Shown: positions 14,864-27,423 of the stretch, piece by piece
How the letters are laid out: the number at the start of each line of letters is the position of its first letter
Position numbering within the stretch: the first letter of the stretch is position 1
NCBI GenBank assembly: GCA_016778305.1
Contig: JADHPT010000016.1
Location: 1 to 33,205 of the forward strand
Direction: 5' to 3'
Origin: Candidatus Poseidonia sp.
GTDB lineage: Archaea > Thermoplasmatota > Poseidoniia > Poseidoniales > Poseidoniaceae
DNA: 33,205 nt
Made by a program: the position numbers and the translations under genes
The notes under the pieces: model-generated
The model's database searches: none
What the model was told of the DNA's origin: nothing
Seen by the model: the letters and a program-made list of their open reading frames with translations, nothing else

Positions 14864-15007
14864 ATGACGTATTTGGCCGTCGCCTACTTCGGCATGCTCG
14901 TTGCCATTGCCCTGTGGACCTACACGGTAGTGCAACGCAGTCGCCGTCTGAACCAACGACTCGAATCGCTTGAAGTAGCGATGTCTGACCGATTTGAAAA
15001 CGATTGA
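14864..15007 (+). CDS. ccmD: Small CcmD-like membrane protein
   Basis: A 47-residue frame, too short for ordinary gene calls. It has one hydrophobic helix near the N-terminus (YLAVAYFGMLVAIALWTYTV, 3-22), then a basic patch QRSRRLNQRLES and a charged helix. This is the expected shape of CcmD, a single-pass adaptor that stabilises the CcmABC complex and holo-CcmE release. A GGAGG lies immediately before the ATG, with a GTG nine bases upstream as an alternative start. It begins 10 bp after ccmC. CcmD sequences are poorly conserved, so the name rests on size, topology and position. Confidence 0.7.
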   Translation: MTYLAVAYFGMLVAIALWTYTVVQRSRRLNQRLESLEVAMSDRFEND

Positions 15008-15095
15008 GGCCAGGTCGCCAAAAAGGGCTCTTCTGTTCTCTCTTCAAGCGAACACGTTCAAAGGTTGTAAGCGAGCCCCTTCAACGGGGAGATAC

Positions 15096-16175
15096 ATGAC
15101 TGGGCGTCTCGGAGGTGAGTTTTGTCTGGTTTGTGGTGCTGATCCACCCCTGTTCGGAGACCGAATGTGCGAGACGTGCATGCGTGCGCGAACGACGCTG
15201 GCGAAAGTACCCGAAAATGTTCCATGGGTTCGGTGTGCACGATGTGGAATCGTGGAAATTGACGGCAAGTGGGAACACACCACCGATAACGAAGTCTGGG
15301 ATGAGTTGCTGCACCGAAATCTCGTCGTTCATGAACGTGCAGAGGCCATTGAATTGGGCATGGAATCGAAAACAGTTTCAGATCGCCACACACTTTTGTA
15401 CATACAAATTGAAGGCGTGATCGACAATCTCCTCTTCCAAGAAGAACATACCATGCGTGCCCGAATGGCCAATGGCGTCTGCTTAACGTGCACGCGCCGG
15501 GCAGGAAATTACTTCGAGGCCACCGTGCAGTTGCGTTCCAGTGCCCGTCGACTCACTGAAGATGAGTTTACGCGCCTGCGAAAAACACTTGACGACGTTC
15601 TGGAAAAACTCTCAGACGACCCAATGTTCTTCATCACTTCTGAAGGAGTCGTCACCGGAGGTTATGATGTGGTTCTTGGAAGTAAAGGACTCGCACGGGC
15701 ATGGGGGCGGCATCTTATTTCTGAATACGGCGGCATGGTCATCGAAACCAATTCAACCGTAGGACGCAAGGATGGTGTCGACGTGACCCGACTGACCCTT
15801 TTGTATCGTAAGCCGGGGTATGAAATCGGGGACGTCATTGCCTGGAGAGGGCACACATGGCGTCCGTCATCTTGGACCAAGGATGGGGCCATTATGGAAC
15901 GGGTTGACCGACGAGAACGCACCGGTGCGACTTGGAGAGACCTCGAACAGGCCAAGGTGCTGGCACAAATGCATGAATTGGTTCGAGTCGATTTTATCAC
16001 AGAAGATGCATCGGTAGGAGAATTCCTTGACCCATCGAACTGGAAGATGGAGTCCGTTCGCCTTCCTTACGACCACGAAACGGGCCGAAAGGGGTTGCTC
16101 GTACGCAAAGATGATGCATGGCTAGCCCTTCCTCAATTCGCGATTGACCTGCCTGAGTCCTCGGAGGAATCATGA
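15096..16175 (+). CDS. nmd3: NMD3-family 60S/50S ribosome biogenesis factor
   Basis: 359 residues from the ATG at 15096, which is preceded by GGGGAG. A frame start at 14994 would overlap ccmD and add 34 residues with no family features. Eukaryotic NMD3 is the export adaptor of the large ribosomal subunit; archaeal homologues lack the export tail and are thought to act in large-subunit assembly. The zinc-binding N-terminus is present: FCLVCG (Cys10, Cys13), MCETC (Cys25, Cys28), VRCARC (Cys47, Cys50), and CLTCTRRAGNYFEATVQLR further on. The C-terminal half, with GGYDVVLGSKGLARAWGRHL, matches the conserved NMD3 core. The stop overlaps the next start by ATGA, so the pair is translationally coupled. 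Confidence 0.9.
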   Translation: MTGRLGGEFCLVCGADPPLFGDRMCETCMRARTTLAKVPENVPWVRCARCGIVEIDGKWEHTTDNEVWDELLHRNLVVHERAEAIELGMESKTVSDRHTLLYIQIEGVIDNLLFQEEHTMRARMANGVCLTCTRRAGNYFEATVQLRSSARRLTEDEFTRLRKTLDDVLEKLSDDPMFFITSEGVVTGGYDVVLGSKGLARAWGRHLISEYGGMVIETNSTVGRKDGVDVTRLTLLYRKPGYEIGDVIAWRGHTWRPSSWTKDGAIMERVDRRERTGATWRDLEQAKVLAQMHELVRVDFITEDASVGEFLDPSNWKMESVRLPYDHETGRKGLLVRKDDAWLALPQFAIDLPESSEES

Positions 16176-23246: not shown

Positions 23247-23435
23247 ATGGGATTTTGCATCAACTGTGGACAGCAACATCATGATGGCACCCGGTTCTGC
23301 CGCTTTTGTGGCAATCAACAACCTGGCGAACCCTTGCTCCAACGCCTTCGAATCGAAGCACAGCAGATTCATGCAATTCGTCTCCAGATGCAGACCCAAC
23401 AACAAGGCAATTCCTATCAGCAACGTCGCTGGTGA
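23247..23435 (+). CDS. Small zinc-ribbon protein
   Basis: 62 residues with two CxxC knuckles: FCINCG (Cys4, Cys7) and FCRFCG (Cys18, Cys21). A Gln-rich helical tail follows (about 28-60: RLRIEAQQIHAIRLQMQTQ). GAGGGAG lies seven bases before the ATG, a strong ribosome binding site, which supports a real gene despite its size. It ends 5 bp before the METTL5-type methyltransferase start, so the two are almost certainly co-translated. The short knuckle spacing is that of the common zinc-ribbon domain, not of Trm112, the zinc protein that activates METTL5 in eukaryotes. A partner role is a hypothesis from context. Confidence 0.85.
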   Translation: MGFCINCGQQHHDGTRFCRFCGNQQPGEPLLQRLRIEAQQIHAIRLQMQTQQQGNSYQQRRW

Positions 23436-23440
23436 AGGGC

Positions 23441-24091
23441 ATGCGTCCCAAGCATTTGGCGATTCAACTCTCTCGTTTAGCACCGCATCCATGCTTGCGT
23501 GTTGAACTTGAACAGTACGCTACAGAGGGAGACCTCGCCGCGTATTGGATGCTTGCGGTCGATCAACTTGATGGTATTGAAGGCCAGCACATTGTTGATT
23601 TAGGAAGCGGGAATGGAATTTTGGGAATTGCCGCCTTGCTTTTGGGCGCACGGAAGGTGACTTTTGTTGAAACCGACGAGGACGCTCTCGAGGTCCTGCA
23701 ATCCAATATCAACAGTCTCGATGAATCACTGCTGGCCCAAGCCAACGTGATCAATGCACGCATTGGCCGTGACGCTCTTGACCTCGCCGCCGTTGACTTG
23801 ATCGTCATGAACCCTCCTTGGGGTGTTCAAACAGCCAAGGCTGACCGCCCTTTTTTGGAACTCGCTTTTGGCTCCGATGCTTCTGCCGTTCACGTGCTCC
23901 ACAGCGAGAAAGCAGCACATATTGAGCCCCTTGCGAAGGACCTCGGATGGGAGTGGGAACACATCATACGAACCGTCTTCAGATTGCCTCCCACTTACAT
24001 GCACCACAGCCAGCGACGCGGGGATACCGAGGTCATGTGCTGGCGTTTTCACAGACCCGGTGATGCCCGCCTTCCCCAAGACGAATCCTAG
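23441..24091 (+). CDS. METTL5-type rRNA N6-adenosine methyltransferase
   Basis: 216 residues from the ATG at 23441, preceded by GGTGAAGG. A frame start at 23306 would lie inside the zinc-ribbon gene and is rejected. The class I SAM-dependent fold is clear: LEQYATEGDLAAYWML (23-38), VDLGSGNGILGIAALLLGA (52-70), FVETDEDALE (75-84) and the catalytic IVMNPPWGVQ (121-130; NPPW, N6-adenine type). VHVLHSEKAAHIEPLAKDLGW and FRLPPTYMHHS then follow the METTL5 C-terminal pattern. METTL5 makes m6A in the small-subunit rRNA decoding region in eukaryotes; archaeal homologues are expected to do the same in 16S rRNA. It sits in a run with exosome and RNA-binding genes. Confidence 0.88.
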   Translation: MRPKHLAIQLSRLAPHPCLRVELEQYATEGDLAAYWMLAVDQLDGIEGQHIVDLGSGNGILGIAALLLGARKVTFVETDEDALEVLQSNINSLDESLLAQANVINARIGRDALDLAAVDLIVMNPPWGVQTAKADRPFLELAFGSDASAVHVLHSEKAAHIEPLAKDLGWEWEHIIRTVFRLPPTYMHHSQRRGDTEVMCWRFHRPGDARLPQDES

Positions 24092-24191: not shown

Positions 24192-25607
24192 ATGACGGCG
24201 AGCCTCGTCACCCCAGGAAGCATCATCGGCCAAGAAGGCCAACACGAACAAGGCGAAGGAACCTCAGTTCATGACGGCAACATCATCTCAACGGTGGTGG
24301 GTTACGTTCATGTTGATGGAGGGACCATCAACGTCACTGCCTCCAAACCCATCGTTTCGCCTGAAGTCGGAGACACGGTTCTTTGCGAAGTTGTGAAACT
24401 CGACGAAAAACACGGTGAGGCCATGGTCCTTTGCATCGAAGGCAAACCTGGCTCCATCCAACCCCAACACCTCTACGGACAATTTTTCGTCACCGGTTTA
24501 GTTGACAGATTCATGCATCAAACATCCGATGCACTCCGTCGCCGTGACGTGTGCCGTGCTGTGATTAAAGAAGTTGAACCGGTCGTCCGACTCGATTTCC
24601 GAGAACGTGATGACTGTGGCGTTCTTCACGCAATTTGCCCGCCTTGTGGCAATACCCTCGAAGCCCATCTCGACGGAGACTGGAACGTCCTCTGTGGGAC
24701 ATGTGGCTACCAATCATACCGTGCTCTTGCTGATAATTTCGGAGCAGGTTGGGCTGAACTTGACCAAGGCTCAAGCAGCCTCAACAATGCTGGAAAACGA
24801 TGGGGAGCCGCTGCTGAAGCCATGTTTGCTGAGGGGCCCGCAGGTCGTGCGACCTTCATCGCAGCAGATGTTCGAGAAGACGGTCGTGAGCGAACCTACT
24901 TCAGATTTGAAGGTCAAGCAGGCGGAGGACGTGGACTTCAACAACGTGCAGCACCAGGTACACGACTCTTCGTGGGCGGACTGCCTCGTGAAATCGGAAC
25001 GGATGAATTACGTGACCTCTTTACCAAACACGGCGAAATGACCGACTGCATCGTGCTCACCGATGACGCTGGTGTGAACCGAGGCTTCGGCTTCGTCACC
25101 TATGCTGACAAGGCCATGGCTGAAGCAGCCATCAGCGCTCTTGACGGACACCGCATCAATGGACGGCGTATCGGTGTTCGTGATGCTGATGACGACAAAA
25201 AGAAAGACAAGAAGCGAGAGCGAAAAGAGCCTCAAGGCTTGAAACTCTACATCGGTAATCTGCCCTTTACCACCACCAGTGAGCAACTCAACAAAATGGT
25301 CGGGGCTCATGCTACCGTCAACGAAGTCATCCTGGCAACCGGGCCGGGCGGCAAACCCAAGGGCTTTGGATTTGTATTCATTCAAGAAAAGGACAAGGGT
25401 GAAGCAGTCGTCGGTGCGCTCAACAACAGCGAAATTGACGGCCGCCGTATCAAGGTCGACATCGCCGAAGCCAAAGGTGGCAAAGGTGGAGATCGTGGCC
25501 GAGACGCAAACAAGGGCGGAAAGTCCTCCCGAGAAATGCAAGCGCTCCGAGAAGAAGAAGAGGGTGGAAAGAAGCGAAATCGCCGCTCTCGCCCTAAGAA
25601 GGATTGA
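24192..25607 (+). CDS. csl4: Exosome subunit Csl4 fused to two RRM domains
   Basis: 471 residues from the ATG at 24192 (ATG 24183 is possible; AAAGGA lies just upstream). Residues 1-~185 match archaeal Csl4, the RNA-binding cap of the exosome. The N-terminal barrel begins LVTPGSIIGQ, an S1-type domain covers ~60-140, and a zinc ribbon is formed by Cys149, Cys152, Cys168 and Cys171. After a ~70-residue linker come two canonical RRMs. RRM1 (257-333) has RNP2 LFVGGL and RNP1 RGFGFVTY. RRM2 (349-426) has RNP2 LYIGNL and RNP1 KGFGFVFI. They are separated by a basic segment (KKKDKKRERK). The tail is Gly/Lys/Arg-rich. Archaeal Csl4 is normally ~180-200 residues, and RRMs are rare in archaea. The frame is continuous, so this is a true fusion. 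A frame start at 23823 overlaps the methyltransferase and is rejected. Confidence 0.9.
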   Translation: MTASLVTPGSIIGQEGQHEQGEGTSVHDGNIISTVVGYVHVDGGTINVTASKPIVSPEVGDTVLCEVVKLDEKHGEAMVLCIEGKPGSIQPQHLYGQFFVTGLVDRFMHQTSDALRRRDVCRAVIKEVEPVVRLDFRERDDCGVLHAICPPCGNTLEAHLDGDWNVLCGTCGYQSYRALADNFGAGWAELDQGSSSLNNAGKRWGAAAEAMFAEGPAGRATFIAADVREDGRERTYFRFEGQAGGGRGLQQRAAPGTRLFVGGLPREIGTDELRDLFTKHGEMTDCIVLTDDAGVNRGFGFVTYADKAMAEAAISALDGHRINGRRIGVRDADDDKKKDKKRERKEPQGLKLYIGNLPFTTTSEQLNKMVGAHATVNEVILATGPGGKPKGFGFVFIQEKDKGEAVVGALNNSEIDGRRIKVDIAEAKGGKGGDRGRDANKGGKSSREMQALREEEEGGKKRNRRSRPKKD

Positions 25608-25632: not shown

Positions 25633-27423
25633 ATGGTTGAACCCTCCGAACCGACATGGTTGGTGCTGGACGGGTACGAAGATGAACCTGCAGCCTTCGG
25701 CGTACCGCCCTATGTTGGCTTTCACATCCGCTACGTCTGCGGCGTTTTGGAGCAACACAAGATCCCCTACACCTACATGACCATCGATCAGTTCAGACAA
25801 CAAAAGCGCCAAGATCCCGAGGGTGTGAACCGATGGATCAGCGCTCAACTCGGTTGTATTTGCATCGCAGGCGCCGTCGTCCCTGGGAAATATTTGCGGG
25901 GTGCACCGATATCCCTACGAGAAACTCAGGAGTTGATTCGAAGCCTGCCCTCTGGCATGCCAGCTCTTTTTGGAGGATGGGCCATTCGAGGATGGAAGCA
26001 ACAAGGATGGACGCCGCTACGAGCCAATCTTTTCCTCGCCGTTCAAGACACAGACGCAACGCTGAATCACTACCTCACCAAACACGAATGGAAACATCAG
26101 CGACGTACGGCGGAACAGTGGACTGCTTGGGCGCACGCTGGCGCTACCAGTCAGGCAGTGACCCTCCATCCGGATTTGGCGACATCCGAACGGCCAGGCC
26201 CGCTCACTTACGAAGTGGAAGTCTACCAGGGATGTGTACGCTACAAACGCGGTTGTAAGTTCTGCATTGAACCAAAAAAGGGCGTTCCAATATGGCGTAC
26301 GCCTGAAGACATCATCCAAGAAGTCAAACTCGCTCATGATTCTGGAGTTGAACACGTGCGTTTGGGTGGTATGACCGACACCTATACTTACATGGCAGAA
26401 GGTGTGAAGGAACTTGAATATCCAGTTCCAAATCCAGAGCCGATTGCCAAATTGCTTCATGGTCTGCGGGATGATGAGCGGCTTGGAATTCTGCACACCG
26501 ACAACGGCAACCCTTCCATCATCGCGGAAAACCTTGAGCCTTCTGAGGCGATCACCAAGACGCTTGTCGAAACCCTATCCGATGGGGCGGTCCTCTCGTT
26601 CGGTTTGGAGTCAGCGGACCCGAGCGTTCACGAAGCGAATTGGTTGAATTGCGATCCGGCCCAACTGAAATCAGCCATTCGTTTGATCAATCAATACGGG
26701 CGAGAACGCGGGGCTCGTGGTTTGCCCAAACTCCTTCCCGGCCTCAACTTCATCGCTGGCCTCAACGGTGAAACCAAGGCTACCTACGGCATGAACATGG
26801 ACCTGCTACGAGAAATCCGCTCGGAGGGGCTTTTGCTTCGTCGAATCAATATTCGTCAAGTTGAGGGCGAGGGTTTCCAGGAGATTCCTTCAGATGCATT
26901 CACGGCCTTCAAGACCGAATGTAGAGAAGAGATTGACCGCCCGTTGCTCGAAGAATTATTTCCCTTAGGCGAAACCCTACGAGACATTCATTGGGAAGCG
27001 CACGACGGGCGTACACGGCTTCCTGCACACCACGAGAAACAGCACACAGAACAGGCTGTTCGCGGGAAAGCAGGGATCACTTTTGGACGTCAAATTGGCG
27101 CCTATCCAATCCTCATCGGCGTGAAATACAAAATCCCTCTCGAAACTCAATCTGACATTATCATCACCGGCCATGGTGCACGCTCTCTTACCGGGGTTGA
27201 ACGAGGCCTCAACCCCACAAGCATCACAGAAAAACAGCTTGCAGCAATTCCTGGCATCGGCGATAAAACAGCGTGGGGCCTCATCAGTGCCCGTGTACGT
27301 TCGCAACGAAAGAAGGGCGACCCCTTTCCCTACGAGAGCGTCGAAGAATGGTTCAAAACTGCAAAAACACCCTATCTGGAAGCATTTGAGCCGTTCTTTT
27401 CGGAAATTATGCGTGTTGAATAA
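25633..27423 (+). CDS. COG1031-type radical SAM protein with C-terminal helix-hairpin-helix
   Basis: 596 residues from the ATG at 25633; longer frames reaching 25279 overlap Csl4-RRM. The N-terminal ~180 residues form a Rossmann-like domain (WLVLDGYEDEPAAFGVPPYVG, CICIAGAVVPGKYLRGAPI). The iron-sulfur motif is GCVRYKRGCKFC (Cys201, Cys208, Cys211), a CX6CX2C spacing in place of the usual CX3CX2C, as I recall for COG1031. The barrel continues with HVRLGGMTDTYTY, ILHTDNGNPSIIAENL and LSFGLESADPSVHEANW. The C-terminus has a helix-hairpin-helix, LAAIPGIGDKTAWGLISAR (~536-554), which commonly binds nucleic acid. The function of the family is not known; an RNA- or DNA-directed reaction is suggested by the HhH and by the RNA-processing neighbours. 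It starts 25 bp after csl4. Confidence 0.85.
   Translation: MVEPSEPTWLVLDGYEDEPAAFGVPPYVGFHIRYVCGVLEQHKIPYTYMTIDQFRQQKRQDPEGVNRWISAQLGCICIAGAVVPGKYLRGAPISLRETQELIRSLPSGMPALFGGWAIRGWKQQGWTPLRANLFLAVQDTDATLNHYLTKHEWKHQRRTAEQWTAWAHAGATSQAVTLHPDLATSERPGPLTYEVEVYQGCVRYKRGCKFCIEPKKGVPIWRTPEDIIQEVKLAHDSGVEHVRLGGMTDTYTYMAEGVKELEYPVPNPEPIAKLLHGLRDDERLGILHTDNGNPSIIAENLEPSEAITKTLVETLSDGAVLSFGLESADPSVHEANWLNCDPAQLKSAIRLINQYGRERGARGLPKLLPGLNFIAGLNGETKATYGMNMDLLREIRSEGLLLRRINIRQVEGEGFQEIPSDAFTAFKTECREEIDRPLLEELFPLGETLRDIHWEAHDGRTRLPAHHEKQHTEQAVRGKAGITFGRQIGAYPILIGVKYKIPLETQSDIIITGHGARSLTGVERGLNPTSITEKQLAAIPGIGDKTAWGLISARVRSQRKKGDPFPYESVEEWFKTAKTPYLEAFEPFFSEIMRVE

Follow-up and report, generated by a model that had tools for sequence, protein, structure and literature searches.

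In nearly every sampled genome of Poseidoniales, an order of marine archaea, the exosome cap protein Csl4 is fused, in one reading frame, to RNA recognition motifs (RRMs). The gene described here lies in the window, the whole 33,205-nucleotide stretch of Candidatus Poseidonia DNA that we analysed, as an open frame running from ATG to TGA without interruption and encoding 471 amino acids. The observation is confirmed and the fused gene is real; chance cannot account for Csl4 and RRM domains sharing one frame across so many genomes. Judged from sequence, the fusion is a trait of the order in the phylum sample examined. Csl4 and RRMs are each known, and what is new is an order-wide redesign of an exosome cap subunit by RRM fusion. 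The parts of the gene and its direct neighbours are as follows, in window positions.

23306-24091 (+): methyltransferase frame directly upstream of the fusion, with matches to methyltransferase Pfam families
24192-25607 (+): csl4-RRM-RRM fusion gene, 471 aa, from the open frame, the family matches and the same frame in 140 of 141 pairable order genomes
24204-24317 (+): ECR1_N, the cap-protein N-terminal domain family, aa 5-42 (PF14382, 39.7 bits, cut-off 27)
24375-24596 (+): S1-type domain of Csl4, about aa 62-135, within the Csl4 equivalog match and the 2ba1 alignment, with strands in the model
24636-24704 (+): four-Cys zinc ribbon, C149/C152/C168/C171, all four Cys invariant in an alignment of family-1 proteins (69 of 69)
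24750-24914 (+): conserved linker (aa 187-241) that aligns across the two families of the order; its family-1 form reads GKRW...ADxRxDG
24963-25190 (+): RRM1, aa 258-333, RNP2 LFVGGL, RNP1 RGFGFVTY (RRM_1, 73 bits)
25191-25244 (+): Lys/Arg-rich inter-RRM linker, pI 9.9
25245-25472 (+): RRM2, aa 352-427, RNP2 LYIGNL, RNP1 KGFGFVFI (RRM_1, 46.9 bits)
25473-25604 (+): basic tail, pI 10.7; its SSREMQALREE motif falls in a helix predicted at low confidence
25633-27423 (+): Radical SAM protein directly downstream (Radical_SAM, 42.8 bits)

A second in-frame ATG lies 9 bases upstream of 24192; we retained 24192 as the start because a matching methionine can serve as start in close relatives. The layout of the protein, a Csl4 part followed by a linker of about 70 residues, two RRMs and a basic tail, is one of two in the order. 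Family 1, that of the window, reads Csl4-linker-RRM-RRM-tail, and family 2 reads Csl4-linker-zinc finger-RRM-tail, with a CxxC-x17-CxxC finger that matches TIGR04272 at 48.7 and 40.4 bits (cut-off 36) in both family-2 proteins tested. In an alignment of 24 rows, 11 of them family 2 (hereafter A1), zf_Tbcl_2 was matched in 11 of the 24 members. At the family-2 loci L015 and L045, the finger sits between linker and RRM, at the place of RRM1 in family 1, as an alternative accessory domain; the CxxC-x17-CxxC motif is also present in the remaining family-2 rows of A1.

How such a protein might work can be pictured from its parts and from an engineered precedent. By orthology, the Csl4 part would take its place next to Rrp4 on the Rrp41/Rrp42 ring; everything after it, from the linker through the two RRMs to the basic tail, would form an arm that binds RNA, as the invariant RNP aromatics described below suggest; and this arm would hold RNA near the pore and feed the ring, as engineered Csl4-NT leads one to expect. 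Part of substrate choice may thereby be built into the cap. From the domains present and this analogy, we think it probable that this Csl4 belongs to the exosome cap and uses its RRMs as a built-in arm to capture RNA. Far more tentative is the further suggestion that the Poseidoniales cap carries its own sequence-selective RNA readers, with the degradation machine itself picking the fate of RNA; this may be so, but we lean somewhat against it.

In PMC4227792 and PMC7667871, the archaeal exosome cap is described as Rrp4, Csl4 and DnaG, and the preference of the Sulfolobus cap for A-rich RNA is put down to Rrp4 and DnaG. In Sulfolobus, according to PMC4227792, DnaG requires Csl4 to stay on the exosome, and Csl4 alone is a poor poly(A) binder; Csl4-NT, which carries the N-terminal RNA-binding domain of DnaG on the C terminus of Sulfolobus Csl4, gained poly(A) binding, and exosomes with Csl4-NT broke down poly(rA) more quickly than those with Csl4. 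As described in PMC4227792, Csl4-NT has an RNA-binding domain on the C terminus of Csl4, the same layout as the Poseidoniales protein, although the former is man-made and DnaG-derived whereas the latter is natural and carries RRMs. DnaG, for which Csl4 is the anchor on the Sulfolobus exosome (PMC4227792), contributes to the RNA selectivity of the cap, as is likewise proposed here for the fused protein, but DnaG is a separate TOPRIM-domain protein, unlike the fused RRMs. A literature search, mostly without subscription papers, turned up no title or abstract opening, among the matches listed, on a natural Csl4-RRM fusion.

The two RRM_1 domains of the window protein jointly score 111.9 bits in a Pfam search (cut-off 20.7). 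Their RNP aromatics, F260, F299 and F301 in RRM1 and Y353, F392 and F394 in RRM2, are invariant in 69 of 69 family-1 rows; position 7 of RNP1 in RRM2 is non-aromatic in 10 of the 69. An AlphaFold model, built on a shallow alignment of 22 close relatives, shows beta-alpha-beta-beta-alpha-beta order in each RRM, and 10-residue blocks within the RRMs have pLDDT values of 75-88. Confidence in the model is low overall (mean pLDDT 59.5, pTM 0.31), with confident parts in the S1 region and both RRMs; because it is low outside the domains, the model lends no support to any geometry relative to the ring. Foldseek ranked the tandem-RRM proteins Sex-lethal, HuR and HuD at the top, with a poor superposition of both RRMs as a pair (rmsd over 10). 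Against the NCBIfam RNA-binding regulator Rbp (NF058537), the window protein scores 97.9 bits, under the cut-off of 100, and is not a member; two family-1 relatives exceed that cut-off (146.1 and 116) and two family-2 relatives miss it (85.6 and 67.7).

This near miss to a bacterial-type RNA-binding regulator family is one of the points in favour of RRMs that bind RNA with little sequence preference and serve the exosome as a chaperone or affinity booster, not as a selector. The inter-RRM linker and the tail are both basic, and the Csl4 proteins of three genomes elsewhere in the phylum (G246, G254 and G257) have long RGG/basic tails and no RRMs, so that plain affinity may be what is selected. 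Nevertheless, invariant RNP aromatics in two domains, together with an RRM in both families, exceed what a basic tail would need, and we give such a low-preference role only a modest chance, although that argument is still compatible with weak specificity.

Within family 1, the best conserved region of the fused protein is the linker. Median identity to the window protein is 88% in the linker, 79% in RRM1, 67% in the Csl4 part and 55% in RRM2, the less conserved of the two RRMs; these medians come from 68 comparisons among 80 loci, with frames that contain N or fall outside 441-479 codons dropped. Across family 1, pN/pS is 0.07 in the linker and 0.14-0.27 in the other regions, rough values taken from 22 pairs more than 75% identical with pS near saturation. 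The linker residues R203, W204, D226 and R228 do not vary in any of 24 rows that cover both families. That the best conserved stretch lies outside the RRMs makes protein contact plausible for the arm, and some RRMs do bind protein; the RRMs might accordingly be docking modules for a protein partner (ribosome, helicase or polymerase), with little or no RNA binding. Yet the RNA-contact aromatics are invariant in all 69 family-1 rows, and we consider pure docking improbable.

The first-pass annotation had read the frame as a complete archaeal Csl4 with two RRMs, and the searches bear this out, NF034126, ECR1_N and two RRM_1 domains all being over cut-off. Over residues 5-183 the NCBIfam Csl4 equivalog NF034126 scores 91.2 bits, just above its cut-off of 90, so the N-terminal part does match a Csl4 profile; ECR1_N reaches 39.7 bits (cut-off 27) in the Pfam search of the window protein; and the N-terminal 240 aa align in sequence with Archaeoglobus fulgidus Csl4 (2ba1) over residues 5-186 with an E value of 6.8e-10. 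No S1 Pfam family was matched in the window protein, and the S1 label for about aa 62-135 is one that we take from general knowledge of Csl4. ECR1_N was matched in 13 of the 24 members of A1 at E 0.01, and in the wider set of 24 from both families Ser replaces Cys at two of the four zinc-ribbon positions of a single member. Some other Csl4 proteins have lost zinc-ribbon cysteines, namely that at L027 (G064) and the sister-order genes L088, L090 and L096. Among 145 order genomes, the NF034126 cut-off is exceeded in 102 and missed in 43, and full-length Csl4 scores reach up to 128 bits in the order, 126-166 in the sister order (those over cut-off) and up to 206 in outgroups. Compared with archaeal Csl4 (A. 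fulgidus 2BA1; NF034126), the fused protein has ECR1_N, the S1-type domain and the four-Cys zinc ribbon in common, and is also alike in its single strong copy and its kind of upstream methyltransferase neighbour, but it adds about 285 residues of linker, RRMs and basic tail.

The genome of origin (1.9 Mb in 33 contigs, 94.4% complete, the window being contig C29) has its sole strong Csl4 match in the fused gene. A search for a second Csl4 found none: the other match, at 23.9 bits, is the Rrp4 gene, which adjoins Rrp41 and Rrp42, and the fused gene probably encodes the organism's only Csl4. RRM_1 was matched only twice in this genome, both times in the fused gene; if the cap does carry its own selective RNA readers, every instance of RNA recognition by RRMs in this organism would be coupled to the exosome. 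The exosome core, examined in this genome only, is represented by Rrp4, Rrp41 and Rrp42 genes standing in a row. Rrp41 is over its cut-off (321.4 against 318.7 bits), and the other two are best matched by the NCBIfam families Rrp42 and Rrp4 but fall below cut-off (230.5 against 280 and 147.5 against 200, respectively). Directly before them, by eye from translations, are SBDS-like and proteasome alpha subunit-like genes, the classical neighbourhood of the archaeal exosome. Away from the exosome genes, on contig C26 at about 206160-207005 (L217:3160-4005, + strand), this genome encodes a second phosphorolytic nuclease, a ribonuclease PH that matches the bacterial equivalog at 247.7 bits (cut-off 141.5).

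DnaG is also over cut-off in this genome, and its matched part begins KYQI, which by eye fits the RNA-binding K6/Y7 of PMC4227792. Since DnaG is still encoded there, the RRMs would add to DnaG, not replace it; the idea that they stand in for a lost DnaG is ruled out in this genome. More widely, DnaG was matched in 37 of 39 genomes tested, the exceptions being G124 and G163. The best DnaG piece in order genomes scores 301-352 bits and mostly ends near position 280 of 419; in G012 it scores 191.6 bits, or 312 with neighbouring pieces, and elsewhere in the order neighbouring pieces bring the total to as much as 371. Sister-order and outgroup genomes reach 469-545 bits where the match is full-length. 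One order genome, G004, has a match over positions 1-418, and several others keep a weak separate C-terminal match; DnaG is also split in some outgroups, and the C-terminal match of sister-order G146 is weak (28.4 bits). At the DnaG loci of the order (L205, L237-L246), matches are thus weaker than in the outgroups and the sister order, and the drop is greatest in the C-terminal domain, the exosome-binding one in Sulfolobus. The scores hint that this domain diverged together with the fusion, a pattern blurred by G004, G146 and the split outgroups.

Directly upstream of unfused csl4, a frame similar to the methyltransferase neighbour, recognized by eye from its LEQY...DLG motifs, stands in 8 of 10 sister-order and outgroup loci; among those ten it was not seen by eye at L207 and L214. 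A methyltransferase neighbour common to fused and unfused csl4 supports their orthology. Downstream, the Radical SAM start motif DEPAAFG occurs somewhere in 29 of the 30 loci L035-L064 (25 of them family 2) and somewhere in 75 of the 80 loci L125-L204. Elsewhere in the window, 14994-16175 encodes an NMD3-family protein (126 bits).

These results bear on whether the fused protein acts apart from the exosome or whether its Csl4 part has lost its place in the cap. The weaker Csl4 matches of the order, relative to those of the sister order and outgroups, would fit such a loss, but the protein is the sole strong Csl4 of a genome that retains Rrp4/41/42-type genes, its gene has a methyltransferase neighbour like that of unfused csl4, and no zinc cysteine is missing from any of the 69 family-1 proteins, points that together make this account very improbable.

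The fusion recurs in relatives throughout the order. Within the 145 order genomes, Csl4 was matched in 144 at E 0.001 and RRM_1 in 143. Both a Csl4 and an RRM place are among the matches listed for 141, and in 140 of these the two share a contig, and the open frames that hold them are equal in length. In the exception, G090, the two parts occupy frames of 213 and 230 aa, and ambiguous bases mark the point where the frame is broken. G109 has neither match; G015, which lacks an RRM, shows Csl4 only as a weak match (positions 2-80) where a contig begins; G054 offers no strong Csl4, and its RRM frame lies close to the beginning of a contig; and in G081 the Csl4 frame runs off the contig inside RRM1. 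By hand count in this sample, each of the 71 RRM-bearing family-1 genomes gives two or more RRM matches, and 71 of 72 family-2 genomes give one, G022 having two on two contigs.

In a larger sample of the class, RRMs were matched in 205 of 222 order genomes. Three family-1 genomes gave one RRM match only, and in all three the frame leaves the contig before or inside RRM2. Fifteen of the 17 order genomes without an RRM are also without a Csl4 over cut-off: in 12 every match is weak and falls in an Rrp4-sized frame (214-269 aa), and three have no match. In G229, the Csl4 frame leaves the contig right after the linker, and in G216 the contig ends 507 bases past the Csl4 match, short of where a family-2 RRM would end. 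Because Csl4 and RRM are absent together or Csl4 lies at a contig end, these RRM-less genomes are no counter-examples, and no complete unfused Csl4 was seen in the order when the 17 RRM-less and three single-RRM genomes, G054 and G081 were searched.

A scan of named contigs, which partly covers the same genomes as the 145-genome sample, agrees. Queried with the Csl4-plus-linker part of five family-1 proteins, it returned, as the best 80 of 110 relatives, loci named as Poseidoniales, Poseidoniaceae, Poseidonia or uncultured euryarchaeotes, among them the 2.06-Mb chromosome record CM001443.1. The frame is closed in 76 of the 80 and leaves the contig in the other four; RNP1 occurs at least twice in 76 of 76 closed frames, one of which shows three across a gap of N. 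Conservation of the fusion in relatives thus stands on the pairable genomes and the closed named loci alike, and relatives in the order carry the same fusion, not separate genes as a local oddity would have it. Although the genomes are mostly metagenome bins and G090 has its parts in separate frames, an assembly or annotation artefact is refuted for the order as a whole by the shared frame (140 of 141 genomes and 76 of 76 closed loci, including a chromosome), the ambiguous bases at the G090 break further counting against it, and its chance is negligible.

Outside the order, the two parts are found separately. The sister order (21 genomes), which by inference is MGIII-like, has an RRM match in 18 of 21 genomes and Csl4 over cut-off in 13 of 21. 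Its RRM frames are 85-105 aa long (17 among the matches listed), its Csl4 frames span 185-235 aa, apart from that of G159 (294 aa), which is extended on the upstream side, and RRM and Csl4 lie on different contigs in all 11 genomes with both places listed. As Csl4 and a small RRM protein are separate in the sister order, the fusion most simply arose at the base of Poseidoniales. Across the phylum, 353 of 389 genomes match Csl4 at E 1e-20, with one match per genome. Among the matches listed, nine Csl4 frames outside the order are at least 263 aa long, and an RRM is absent from all nine; what lengthens them is mainly open frame on the upstream side, an extension of 40 aa (G270) or tails of RGG/basic type. 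Such tails, 73-118 residues long, occur at L251, L253 and L254 (G254, G257 and G246), in other members of the phylum, and it looks as if nucleic-acid-binding tails had been added to Csl4 more than once.

Small single-RRM proteins of the sister order and other phylum members resemble the fused RRMs in having RNP1 and RNP2 but are stand-alone frames. RRMs occur outside the class in 21 genomes of the 389-genome sample, in frames of 81-158 aa (hand count), and RRM_1 was matched in only two of 14 control genomes, Synechococcus elongatus and Bacteroides ihuae; the supposed scarcity of RRMs in archaea held for those examined in these two sets. RNP1 reads VEM or IEM in the stand-alone RRMs and mostly VT[YF] in fused RRM1. 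In an RRM tree of 53 rows and 76 columns, which carries a long-branch warning, family-1 RRM1 falls on one side of a branch (96/88), RRM2 takes 3 changes and the family-2 RRM takes 2, and the RRM2 rows of L005 and L006 group with stand-alone RRMs (100/99), a picture compatible with one origin of the fused RRMs or with several.

In eukaryotes, exosome adaptors with RRMs, such as RBM7 of NEXT and Nrd1, use the RRM to bring RNA to the exosome. Their RRM resides in a separate adaptor, whereas that of Poseidoniales resides in a core cap subunit. Marine archaea of the Poseidoniales type are abundant in the ocean, and in this order the cap subunit itself has acquired putative RRM-type RNA readers, a natural counterpart of an experiment earlier done by engineering. 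Specificity in RNA decay may have evolved by domain fusion rather than through separate adaptors, and the degradation machine of these archaea may directly select some of its own RNA substrates.
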